DNA from: Marine group II euryarchaeote REDSEA-S42_B7
GTDB lineage: Archaea; Thermoplasmatota; Poseidoniia; Poseidoniales; Thalassarchaeaceae
Reading direction: 5' to 3'
Assembly (NCBI GenBank): GCA_001629255.1
Contig: LURZ01000018.1
Coordinates: forward strand, 1 to 33,980
DNA: 33,980 bases
Shown: in pieces, positions 1,596-6,911 of the stretch
How positions within the stretch are numbered: the first letter of the stretch is position 1
How the letters are laid out: each line of letters starts with the position of its first letter
Program-made: the position numbers and the translations under genes
The notes under the pieces: generated by a model
The model's input: the letters and a program-made list of their open reading frames with translations, nothing else
Told to the model about the DNA's origin: nothing
Database searches by the model: none

Positions 1596-2433
1596 GCGTT
1601 GACACCTCCATAGCTATCTCTACTATTCTCGCTTCAATCCTAGACCTGTGTTCGTTTTCATGGCCAATGCAACGTAGTTTGTCATAGACAGACTCGAGAG
1701 AGGAAGACTCCTTTTTGCATTCGGATATTCTGCGCCTGGCCTCCCATTTCTCGGCAAGAATTCCAACCATCGGTAAGCGCATAGCACCCCACCATAGCGG
1801 AAACTCGCCAATAGCCTCGGTGAGTTCGATTGGAGGGGAGAGATTAGCATTCGGTAGATGCCCTAGAAACCATGGATTCTGAGAAATCATCTCTTCAAAA
1901 ATTTCCCTCCCTTTCACCGGTCTCATCATCGCGAGTTCCCTGGCTGCATAGACAGAAGGTCGCAGCTTCAGATTTCTACGGTCCAGCACCATATTTGGGC
2001 AAATCCTCGTTTTCACCCTCGCATTGTGCTCGAGATACACCGCAAGCGCCCTCACTCTCCACACGTAATCAGCCTTCGTCACAATAAGGAGGTCCAAGTC
2101 CGCTCCTTCGATGCTTGATCCAGATGCTAGGGACCCAGTTATCGCGACTCCCAAGATAGCGCTCGTTTCACACAACTTTGAAACAACAGGCAAGCCTTCT
2201 TTGAGATGCCGATTAGCATTAGCTGTCCCTTTTTCGTAGTCTAAACCAGGGTATTCCTTTCCTGTGAGGTACCACCTTCCCGCCCTTTGCTCGAACTCGT
2301 CGATACCACCTAGCACCGCAGATACTTCTTCGATTGTGCTCTTCTTAGTGAGATACCTCAAGACCTCACTGGATTTCAATCCCCGATCGAAGACTGCCGC
2401 CCACGACAGAACATCGATAATTTCAGTCTTCAT
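1576..2433 (-). CDS. Nucleotidyltransferase-fold (MNT-like) domain protein
   Basis: 'GVAITGSLASGSSIEGADLDLLIVT' fits the GSxxxG...DxD nucleotidyltransferase pattern; ATG at 2433 preferred over TTG at 2439. Confidence 0.65.
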   Translation of the reverse strand: MKTEIIDVLSWAAVFDRGLKSSEVLRYLTKKSTIEEVSAVLGGIDEFEQRAGRWYLTGKEYPGLDYEKGTANANRHLKEGLPVVSKLCETSAILGVAITGSLASGSSIEGADLDLLIVTKADYVWRVRALAVYLEHNARVKTRICPNMVLDRRNLKLRPSVYAARELAMMRPVKGREIFEEMISQNPWFLGHLPNANLSPPIELTEAIGEFPLWWGAMRLPMVGILAEKWEARRRISECKKESSSLESVYDKLRCIGHENEHRSRIEARIVEIAMEVSTHERGLR

Positions 2434-4375
2434 TAACAAGCCCCACCTTTACCAGATATCTTGTACCTTCGGGGACGAGGAACTCCTGCATGCAACCCTT
2501 TCCATTGCAGATCAGTGAGGCATTCCCCCCCTTCCCGAAGATCATATCCATGGCCTCTTTTCCGTTACTTGATTGGTCCTTCAGATCGATAATCTCTATG
2601 ATACTCCAATCATCAGGTGCTGAGACATTCACGCCCCCAGAGGCAAGGAAGACGTCCCCCTCGTGTCCACTGCTCCAGTCAACATGTAGCATTGATGCAG
2701 CTCGGTGATAATCGCCCCTGGTGCTATTTGTCGACCAGAGAGTCGCATAAACAACTTCTCTCGATGAACTGGCGATTGGGTCGACTGGCGCTCCAAGAAT
2801 GTACAGGGGCTCAGATTCCCACTCAAACCTAGATACCTTCCCCCCTATGATTACATGGGTTGCATCGACGACTTCTATCGAATCGTGAATAGGATCATCA
2901 GAAGGGCCGAAACGATATGTCGGGACCCCAAATCTGACGCCCAGAGTTATGTCAAATCCGGCTAGAACAATAGCATCAGCTGGCAGATGATTTCCTATCT
3001 CGACAAATTCATCCAAGTAGCGCTCTCTGTATTGAATGACACTAAGATCATGATCCCTGTTTTCGAGGGAATCCATTACAACTGATGTGACTTGATGTGA
3101 CAGCAACAACATTACTAGGAAAGAACCCGCGATTTCAGTATTGATTCTCACTTCGTCTGATAAGGACTCAAGATTCTGGAAAGCCCAATTGCAAGTTAGG
3201 CAAATCAAAACAGAAAGCCAAGGCAAATGATATCTCGGATATCCAAAATCAAGTACAACCGTGAAAATAACCATGCTGGGAAGCGCTATTGATGCCATTA
3301 CCGGAAATCTTCGGAGCGTATCCTGTCTAATCCAGAGCCAGCTTACTGTGAGTAAGCACACCAACAGTGTAAAGCCGATTTCGGCAGATATGTCGGCGAT
3401 CGCCATTGCTAAGCCGTAGTTTCCGACCTCATCAGTCATGCTATTCACAACTCCCAAGGCCTGGGGCTCAAAACTGGCGAATGGACTCCCGTGGTCAATC
3501 ATATCCGAGACCAAAAAAGGCAGTTGAAACAAAATCCATGAACCTAAAAAAACAGGAATTGCATTCCTGTCCCGATGCATTGCCCAGATACAAATCGGCA
3601 GCGAGATTCCTAGGTATAGGTATGGATATTTTACTGCGCCTACTAACGATGCGACCATGCCCAGTCCGATATAGTCTACCCTGTTCAGAACGTCATAGTT
3701 CAACACATCCAGAGCGATTCTGAAGACCATCACCAATCCTCCTGTGGCCAAAGCTTCTAGATACGCGGTTCGCCCGAATAATAGCATGGTTGGAAGGGCC
3801 AGAACCACCGCGGTCGCAGTTACGCCCCCAAGGGCCCCATTGCCTCTTTCTGCCAGGGCTTGAATTTGCCAGCCGCAAGCGACTAGACATGCAATCGGCA
3901 CGAAATTTGCCTCGTACCTACTTCCTGTCAACCCAATCTCAATCGCGAGCAATCCAGACATTATTTTAGGTCGGAACGAGAAGTCCATATCCTGATGGAA
4001 TGGCTCCCAGCTCCATCTACCCAGGTATCTGTTTGCAGTTTGCAGGTGGTCGGCCTGATCCCACTGCATTGGACTGGACCAAAGCGGATCAATCCAACCC
4101 AAAATCATCGCAAAAGCCGGCACGAATAACCACCTAAAGTCTCTCTTCGAAAAAAACGAATCCTTGAGAATGATTGTGACCAGTACGAGAATTAGCCCCG
4201 TCGACGCGATAATTGGGGGCCAGACATCCCACCCTAACTCTCCAAAAGATGCCACCAACCAACCGGAGAGTAGAATTACTGGTAACCAACTCTTTGCCAG
4301 CCTTTCACCTGCTGTGCCACTAATGCCTAGTGTACGCATTACCGTGACTAGTTGACACCAAACACGCCTCTGCAT
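2423..4375 (-). CDS. Multi-pass membrane protein, probable GT39/PMT-like glycosyltransferase
   Basis: 650 aa with many hydrophobic helices and a soluble C-terminal domain; 'DQADHLQTANRYLGRWSWEPFHQDMDF' early loop resembles integral-membrane glycosyltransferases. Confidence 0.55.
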   Translation of the reverse strand: MQRRVWCQLVTVMRTLGISGTAGERLAKSWLPVILLSGWLVASFGELGWDVWPPIIASTGLILVLVTIILKDSFFSKRDFRWLFVPAFAMILGWIDPLWSSPMQWDQADHLQTANRYLGRWSWEPFHQDMDFSFRPKIMSGLLAIEIGLTGSRYEANFVPIACLVACGWQIQALAERGNGALGGVTATAVVLALPTMLLFGRTAYLEALATGGLVMVFRIALDVLNYDVLNRVDYIGLGMVASLVGAVKYPYLYLGISLPICIWAMHRDRNAIPVFLGSWILFQLPFLVSDMIDHGSPFASFEPQALGVVNSMTDEVGNYGLAMAIADISAEIGFTLLVCLLTVSWLWIRQDTLRRFPVMASIALPSMVIFTVVLDFGYPRYHLPWLSVLICLTCNWAFQNLESLSDEVRINTEIAGSFLVMLLLSHQVTSVVMDSLENRDHDLSVIQYRERYLDEFVEIGNHLPADAIVLAGFDITLGVRFGVPTYRFGPSDDPIHDSIEVVDATHVIIGGKVSRFEWESEPLYILGAPVDPIASSSREVVYATLWSTNSTRGDYHRAASMLHVDWSSGHEGDVFLASGGVNVSAPDDWSIIEIIDLKDQSSNGKEAMDMIFGKGGNASLICNGKGCMQEFLVPEGTRYLVKVGLVNED

Positions 4376-4432: not shown

Positions 4433-5107
4433 TCACTCTAGGAAGGAGGAAAATTCCGGGAGACTCTTTCTCGTCAAATCGGGGACCTTTGCAGTTTCGG
4501 AAGGATAGCCCACTGGCATCAGTAACATCGCATGCTCATGGTCTGGTCTATCGAGAATATCGCGGAGAAATCCCATCGGAGATGGAGTGTGAGGAAGCGT
4601 CACAAGCCCCATGTTGTGAACCGATGATATGAACAGGCCAGCGGCAATACCACATGACTCTTGGGAGTAATATGTGGGAGCCATCCCCTCCTTCCTTTCT
4701 CTCTTTGCTTGCCTGAAAAGAACAACAACCCAAGGTGCATCTGTGATGTGGCTCTTGACATGGTCTGTTCCTAGAGGGGCTAGCACCTCCTCCCACTCAT
4801 CAGGAACTCTTTCTCGATAGAATAGTCTCTCTTCTTTCTCGGCCGCCTCTCTGATTCTAGCCTTCATCTCACTATTCGAGATCGCCACGAAGGTCCAGGG
4901 CTGGAGGTGAGCCCCAGAAGGAGCGGTACCGGCAGTCCTGATTGCTAACTCTATCAACTCACGAGGGACTTTCTTTTTCGAGAAGTGACGGGTGGTTCTC
5001 CTTGAATTCATTTGGCTGTAGAAAGCCTTCGCTCTTCGAAGCATCTCCTCACGTTCTATCTCGGAGAAATCAAGGGGGACAAAACCTCCACTCCCGCCGC
5101 CAGTCAT
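4433..5107 (-). CDS. Nitroreductase-superfamily flavoprotein, iodotyrosine deiodinase (halotyrosine dehalogenase)-like
   Basis: 'RRTTRHFSKKKVPRELIELAIRTAGTAPSGAHLQPWTFVAI', '...MLLMPVGYPSETAKVPDLTRKSL' closely match the IYD subfamily. ATG at 5107 overlaps the upstream stop as ATGA, so it is preferred over the ORF-track start at 5230. Confidence 0.85.
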   Translation of the reverse strand: MTGGGSGGFVPLDFSEIEREEMLRRAKAFYSQMNSRRTTRHFSKKKVPRELIELAIRTAGTAPSGAHLQPWTFVAISNSEMKARIREAAEKEERLFYRERVPDEWEEVLAPLGTDHVKSHITDAPWVVVLFRQAKRERKEGMAPTYYSQESCGIAAGLFISSVHNMGLVTLPHTPSPMGFLRDILDRPDHEHAMLLMPVGYPSETAKVPDLTRKSLPEFSSFLE

Positions 5108-5673
5108 GTATTCCCTGAGTCGCGTCTTATCATAATGGCTGCCATGGCAGTAGATGCCAAAACTAAGGTAATCGTAAAACCTGGAAGCGAGCTGTCCTCG
5201 TCTTGGCAGTATGTCTCGGATCCTCCCCACGTGCCATTGTCGAACCAGCAGTCTGACCAGACCCTCCAGCCAAAGCCAACATCTGGTATATGCGACTCTG
5301 AACCGTTCTCAAACTCGATTATGAATTTCCAGTTGAGGTATGAGTAACCAGGCTCCGTATCAAGATGAGAGACGAATAAACCATCGTCTCCTCTATCCAT
5401 ATGTGTCTCTTGGGGAGGGTAACAGATTCCAGAGTTGATGCAAACCTGGGTTATCCACCTGATGTTTGAGATATTCGAATCATCATCCATCAGCAAAATC
5501 ACGCTGTAATCAGTAGAATCAGAAGTACCGTTACTCGTTCGCAATACCTCATCGTAGTGCAAGGTCTCGATACTCGTACCCTCTAAAGAAATCGACTCGT
5601 TTACGCCTCCTTGGGATGCGCTAACCGGAAAGGTTACCAGACAGACTACTAGAAGCGCCCGCAACCTTCGCAT
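5104..5673 (-). CDS. Secreted surface protein with N-terminal signal peptide and PGF-CTERM-like C-terminal anchor
   Basis: N-term 'MRRLRALLVVCLVTFPVSASQG' signal; C-term 'LPGFTITLVLASTAMAAIMIRRDSGNT' = PGF + hydrophobic segment + Arg cluster. Confidence 0.7.
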   Translation of the reverse strand: MRRLRALLVVCLVTFPVSASQGGVNESISLEGTSIETLHYDEVLRTSNGTSDSTDYSVILLMDDDSNISNIRWITQVCINSGICYPPQETHMDRGDDGLFVSHLDTEPGYSYLNWKFIIEFENGSESHIPDVGFGWRVWSDCWFDNGTWGGSETYCQDEDSSLPGFTITLVLASTAMAAIMIRRDSGNT

Positions 5674-6287: not shown

Positions 6288-6911
6288 ATGCTGGCTATCT
6301 GCCTGGACCTTGAGGGAGTGCTTATTCCTGAGATATGGATCAATGTGGCAGAAAGGACGGGAATTAGCGCACTAACCAGAACGACCAGGGATGAGCCAGA
6401 CTACGACCGTCTGATGAGTTACAGACTCGGAATTCTGGACCAGAACGATATCAAGATGGGCGACATAACATCAACGATTGAATCGATGGATCCTATGGAG
6501 GGGGCGATGGAGTTCCTCGCCTCTCTGGAGTCTCGGTGGCCCACTCTTATCCTGTCTGATACCTTCTCCCAGTTCGCGAAGCCGATGATGAAAAAATTAG
6601 GTAACCCAACACTTCTCTGTCATACTCTAGTGATAGACGAAACTGGTAGGATAGAGGACTGGGAGATCAGGTACGATGACCACAAGAGAAAGACAGTCGA
6701 ATCGCTAATCGAGATGAATTACCAAGTAATCGCCGCAGGCGACTCATACAATGACACTTCTATGCTATCGGCTGCAAGTGCGGGAATCCTCTTTAGACCC
6801 CCAGAAAACGTCATTCAGGAGTTTCCTCAATTCCCTGTCGCAATGGATTACTCGGAACTGACTGATGCGATAGAGTCGGCTGCGACAGACCTAGGCGAGC
6901 TATGGAATTAG
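6288..6911 (+). CDS. thrH: Phosphoserine phosphatase/homoserine phosphotransferase, ThrH-like
   Basis: 'CLDLEGVLIPEIWINVAERTGISALTRTTRDEPDYDRLM', 'LILSDTFSQFAKPMMKKLGNPTLLCH', 'VIAAGDSYNDTSMLSAASAGILFRPPENVIQEFPQFP' match ThrH across its length. Confidence 0.92.
   Translation: MLAICLDLEGVLIPEIWINVAERTGISALTRTTRDEPDYDRLMSYRLGILDQNDIKMGDITSTIESMDPMEGAMEFLASLESRWPTLILSDTFSQFAKPMMKKLGNPTLLCHTLVIDETGRIEDWEIRYDDHKRKTVESLIEMNYQVIAAGDSYNDTSMLSAASAGILFRPPENVIQEFPQFPVAMDYSELTDAIESAATDLGELWN

Follow-up and report, generated by a model that had tools for sequence, protein, structure and literature searches.

Iodotyrosine deiodinase (IYD) is best known from the salvage of iodide in the thyroid, and the IYDs with solved structures come from animals and bacteria. 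What a gene of this kind might be doing in a planktonic archaeon is the question raised by a reading frame on a 33,980-nucleotide stretch of a contig (the whole stretch is here called the window), which belongs to a Poseidoniales (Marine Group II) draft genome of 1.19 Mb that is 71% complete. The plus strand across the gene is crowded with stops, leaving the minus strand as the coding one, and every peptide quoted in the initial annotation, which had been made from the letters alone, is found in the minus-strand translation. That annotation had also guessed at a marine archaeon, and rightly so: the closest named ortholog records are Candidatus Poseidoniales single-cell genomes, at 96 and 95% identity, and ortholog records carry the names Candidatus Poseidoniales, Thalassarchaeum, or Marine Group II. 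The start codon (ATG, 5105-5107) overlaps the TGA of the gene upstream (5104-5106) as ATGA, and purifying selection acts on the gene (dN/dS of ~0.12 against two 95%-identical orthologs). Its features are collected in Table 1.

Table 1. Features of the IYD-type gene and its upstream neighbor in the window
Feature	Position	Strand	Basis
Iodotyrosine-deiodinase-type flavoprotein gene, 224 aa	4433..5107	(-)	ORF and translation; PDB sequence matches 5ko7, 3gb5, 4ttb, 6pz0; Pfam PF00881, 83.9 bits
Upstream gene: exported, C-terminally anchored 189-aa protein, CINSGICYPP motif, ATGA overlap with the IYD gene	5104..5673	(-)	Conserved neighbor in the window's family, separate from the enzyme
FMN-contact stretch RRTTRH, residues 36-41 (R36, R37, T38, R40 = mouse R96, R97, S98, R100)	4985..5002	(-)	Alignment; PMC3930498
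PSGAH, residues 63-67 (P63, S64 = mouse FMN contacts P123, S124; A66 = mouse A126/human A130)	4907..4921	(-)	Alignment; PMC3930498
E93 (GAG), triad Glu	4829..4831	(-)	Multiple alignment
Y97 (TAT), triad Tyr	4817..4819	(-)	Multiple alignment
W105, tryptophan of the lid; unchanged throughout the IYD clade, replaced by Leu in T. neapolitana IYD	4793..4795	(-)	Multiple alignment
K118 (AAG), triad Lys	4754..4756	(-)	Multiple alignment
T174 (ACT) = mouse T235/human T239, beside flavin N5	4586..4588	(-)	Alignment; PMC3930498 (FMN contact)
R213 = mouse FMN contact R275	4469..4471	(-)	Alignment; PMC3930498

The protein had been assigned at the outset to the IYD branch of the nitroreductase superfamily, and profile scores, tree, and fold match all bear this out. 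In a phmmer search of all solved chains, the best match was the IYD of Haliscomenobacter hydrossis (hhIYD; 5ko7), at 218 bits (E = 9.2e-64, 50% identity over 208 residues). Mouse and human IYD scored 174 to 176 bits (E about 1e-50, ~42% identity) and Thermotoga neapolitana IYD (tnIYD) 82 bits (E = 6e-22, 27% identity), against 43 bits at most for nitroreductases other than IYDs, the next E value after the IYDs being 4e-10. Scores spaced in this way place the similarity to IYDs beyond chance. Pfam assigns the protein at the superfamily level only (PF00881, 83.9 bits), and none of the NCBIfam profiles gave an IYD match. A structure prediction had been proposed in the initial annotation, and the resulting AlphaFold2 model, a monomer of moderate quality (mean pLDDT of 73) for a family whose pocket forms across the dimer, matches IYD chains best: PDB matches 1 to 25 in the fold search are all IYD chains, led by the iodotyrosine-bound form of hhIYD (5ko8; E = 4e-19, TM of 0.73 to 0.77).

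Crystal structures of IYD (3gfd, 3gh8, 4ttc, and 5ko8) reveal a Glu-Tyr-Lys triad that holds the zwitterion of the substrate. On the strength of a gap-free alignment to human IYD, the archaeal protein had been said to match human E157, Y161, and K182; HMMER alignments to mouse, human, and H. hydrossis IYD reproduce this without a gap at the triad. The match also held up when all collected homologs were aligned with MAFFT: hhIYD, mouse IYD, and tnIYD have their Glu, Tyr, and Lys opposite E93, Y97, and K118. Across 85 IYD-clade sequences from archaea, bacteria, and mouse, 30 of the 224 positions are invariant, among them the triad, W105, T174, and R36/R37/R40; with 30 of 224 positions invariant over these rows, three sites chosen beforehand would all fall among them by chance with a probability of about 0.002. 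Twenty positions, the triad and T174 included, stay invariant when tnIYD is added. The triad is intact in all Poseidoniales copies with a reading frame that spans the triad sites, the apparent exceptions (R, F, or X) being copies with a deletion, a frame break, or masked bases. It is intact as well in five copies from a lineage of the same class (f3), on one probable contaminant contig, and in seven bacterial plasmid copies. As a control, a nitroreductase paralog from the same genome (L002) has K, L, and I at these sites. Mouse IYD has eight FMN contacts (R96, R97, S98, R100, P123, S124, T235, and R275; PMC3930498), of which seven are identical in the archaeal protein and one is changed from Ser to Thr (T38), as in hhIYD.

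Two sets of copies depart from this pattern. In a close relative (L060 and L109, REDSEA-S11 MAG/G022; 94.6% identical DNA), an internal loss of ~100 bp (IYD nucleotides 206 to 301) disrupts the frame and takes out several residues, E93 among them; this is either a naturally broken copy or an assembly fault. Three tnIYD-type proteins from distant Thermoplasmatota (L096, L097, and L098) have altered triads (D/F/K, E/H/K, and D/Y/K) and offer a natural series for probing the role of the triad.

A phylogeny with reference IYDs had likewise been proposed. In the IQ-TREE analysis of 69 rows, of which the bacterial ones are few (plasmid records and PDB entries) and several have long end branches, tnIYD is the outgroup and the archaeal protein falls within the clade of hhIYD and mouse IYD. 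The 48 Poseidoniales rows form a single clade (support, 100/97) whose sister is a pair of Deinococcus proteins (100/98). A neighboring clade (97/86) unites mouse IYD with hhIYD and a further pair of Bacteroidota proteins, two Actinomycetota proteins make up another, and the outgroup consists of tnIYD and three Thermoplasmatota proteins; with this thin bacterial sampling, the Poseidoniales clade is bracketed by hhIYD and mouse IYD, and tnIYD lies outside. The f3 copies, from a lineage that we take to be Marine Group III, branch elsewhere, with Paraburkholderia, and this separate position suggests that IYD was gained from bacteria at least twice. A second IYD copy in the G020 MAG (L095, on contig C66) has bacterial-looking neighbors, groups with the same f3/Paraburkholderia type, and probably lies on a contaminant contig.

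Orthologs, whether full, edge-cut, or internally deleted, are present in 42 of 59 relatives. In the window's family, an IYD copy occurs in 27 of the 28 genomes that have the neighbor gene (a fragment at a contig edge and a deleted copy are included), and in a second family it occurs in 16 of 23, with absence patchy inside one genus. The gene is not essential, since some relatives do without it, among them 7 of the 23 genomes of the second family. Outside the class, the sampled genomes of the phylum yielded three weak tnIYD-like matches only. Bacterial homologs are common, and those found are annotated merely as nitroreductase family proteins; a search for viral carriage of IYD found none.

Set beside the known enzymes, the archaeal protein most resembles hhIYD (PDB 5ko7, 5ko8, and 5krd) in being a soluble single domain with E/Y/K, lid Trp, and N5 Thr, but hhIYD is bacterial (Bacteroidota), belongs to a different subclade, and has T where residue 172 of the window's protein is P. 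Mammalian IYD, or DEHAL1 (PDB 3gb5, 3gfd, 4ttb, and 4ttc), shares 42% identity over the catalytic domain as well as the FMN contacts (with S98 replaced by T38), the triad, and the N5 Thr. It differs in its N-terminal extension with a membrane anchor and in its thyroid iodide-salvage role, neither of which belongs to the archaeal protein, a single domain of 224 residues in which we saw no signal peptide or membrane anchor. The nearest sampled nonarchaeal relatives, the plasmid-borne nitroreductase family proteins of Deinococcus (WP_151845525.1 and WP_225523784.1), have the triad intact but a different gene neighborhood. The Thermotoga enzyme (PDB 6pz0, named a deiodinase there) shares the fold, triad, and N5 Thr, but it is shorter, has Leu in place of the lid Trp, and is a deep outgroup in the tree. 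The protein represents a new archaeal branch within an established enzyme family rather than a new type of enzyme.

We consider the gene product likely to be a cytoplasmic FMN-dependent halotyrosine dehalogenase, an ortholog of IYD in the broad sense, and from the intact site we infer standard IYD chemistry. By analogy with IYD, the protein would be a homodimer, with FMN held in the nitroreductase-fold pocket by R36, R37, T38, R40, P63, S64, T174, and R213. Free halotyrosine would stack on the flavin while E93, Y97, and K118 grip its amino-acid head, and this contact would order the helical lid over the site in a substrate-induced closure; in IYD, the lid touches the substrate (PMC5499721). 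T174 may hydrogen bond to flavin N5, stabilize the semiquinone, and so favor one-electron steps. The role of the IYD threonine beside N5 has reportedly been a subject of work by the Rokita group. FMN, reduced by a presumed electron donor, would then swap an iodo, bromo, or chloro group for hydrogen, releasing tyrosine and halide.

The nitroreductase superfamily fold is catalytically versatile, and the IYD scaffold and its pocket for the amino-acid head could instead belong to an FMN nitro- or ene-reductase (or a flavin reductase) that works on another aromatic amino-acid-like substrate, such as nitrotyrosine or an oxidized aromatic metabolite, with dehalogenation as no more than a side activity. 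Such a reading would suit a gene that has no halogen-related neighbors and whose product, in the window's close relatives, has a pocket-proximal proline at residue 172 instead of the usual T. That proline, however, is shared with tnIYD, which bears the name iodotyrosine deiodinase in the PDB. The triad and the lid Trp are invariant, and so is the Thr beside N5, which, from work on human T239, is said to suppress nitroreductase chemistry in IYD. We regard this reading as unlikely.

More improbable still is a noncatabolic redox regulator that binds tyrosine or halotyrosine, for which the precedent is C. elegans SUP-18, an IYD ortholog known only for potassium channel regulation (PMC3930498). SUP-18 itself seems to require its catalytic site, however, and the archaeal protein has neither a membrane segment nor a conserved partner. 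Weak profile matches would also allow a BluB (DMB synthase) or FbiB-type flavin enzyme, but the 54.6 bits for BluB fall below a cutoff of 150 (TIGR02476) and the 39.8 bits for the FbiB C-terminal domain below one of 249.55 (TIGR03553). The similarity to IYD is far stronger, the IYD-specific lid is present, and we give this last reading almost no credence.

For a halotyrosine dehalogenase, the most likely role would be to strip the halogen reductively from free halotyrosine that proteolysis has released. Marine Group II archaea are reported to be proteolytic, without amino acid biosynthesis genes, and reliant on external amino acids (PMC6461757; PMC6336850). In none of 30 relatives did a prephenate dehydrogenase score over the cutoff, whereas all 14 control genomes were positive, so the Poseidoniales relatives probably need external tyrosine. 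Together, the proteolytic habit, the amino acid dependence, and the missing prephenate dehydrogenase make halotyrosine derived from proteolysis the most plausible source. The enzyme would likely serve both to recover tyrosine from halotyrosines freed from marine proteins and to remove them; its sequence fits tyrosine salvage and detoxification alike. For tyrosine catabolism, no relative had a 4-hydroxyphenylpyruvate dioxygenase-type (HPPD) match over the cutoff, which just 1 of the 14 control genomes passed. A search for flavin halogenases (PF04820) was set aside, the matches being mostly weak and unspecific and the E. coli and Haloferax controls matching too.

With the substrate-gripping residues intact and the enzyme shared by close relatives, Marine Group II archaea probably remove halogen from the tyrosines that marine protein releases. 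A fuller scenario, toward which we lean somewhat less than away, is that of an order-wide halotyrosine dehalogenase that the ancestor of the Poseidoniales acquired from bacteria, and f3 in a separate event, with which proteolytic tyrosine auxotrophs would salvage tyrosine and return halide from naturally halogenated marine protein. If true, it would add an archaeal step to marine organohalogen turnover, in the most abundant archaea of the surface ocean. Microbial IYD homologs, possibly archaeal ones among them, have been listed before in the IYD literature. A full-text literature search on IYD and archaea returned nothing relevant, and the main texts of the Marine Group II genome or transcriptome papers covered here mention neither dehalogenation nor nitroreductases. 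What is added here is that the enzyme occurs across an order of abundant marine archaea and can be linked to their dependence on tyrosine. A concrete and testable setting for the natural purpose of IYD in microbes is provided by a dominant planktonic archaeal order, probably in need of tyrosine, that has retained by vertical descent an IYD with its triad intact, with halotyrosine from marine protein as the candidate substrate.

No operon pointing to the metabolism of tyrosine or of halogens is conserved around IYD in either family. Across most of the window's family, the gene sits -17 to +15 bp behind one whose exported product carries an invariant C-x5-C motif, with YPP as its usual continuation, and is anchored by a hydrophobic C terminus; in the second family, the neighbors vary from genome to genome. 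We rejected this protein as a functional partner of IYD: its homolog occurs throughout the order, lies apart from IYD in the second family, and turns up in genomes that lack IYD, and the adjacency is therefore shared gene order and no proof of joint function. The protein at 5104-5673 evolves fast, has two invariant motifs (W.TQ.C.N.G.C..P and W(S)xCW) and a PGF-like C-terminal anchor, and receives no annotation from Pfam or NCBIfam. A likeness to DsbD-alpha was also set aside; its best four profile matches are all DsbD-alpha, at the C-x5-C-YPP motif, but with a profile E of only 0.04, and a fold search gave nothing significant.

Other genes nearby deserve mention in their own right. A 650-residue multispan membrane protein without a Pfam match (2423-4375, minus strand) lies beside IYD in the closest relatives only. 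In a single genome of the second family (G058; L104, 6717-8858, minus strand), the IYD-adjacent gene looks by eye like a catalase-peroxidase. Finally, the window encodes at 6288-6911, on the plus strand, a ThrH-type phosphoserine phosphatase/homoserine phosphotransferase, here in an archaeon, with profile scores of 288.7 bits (cutoff, 133) and 255.9 bits (cutoff, 223.4).
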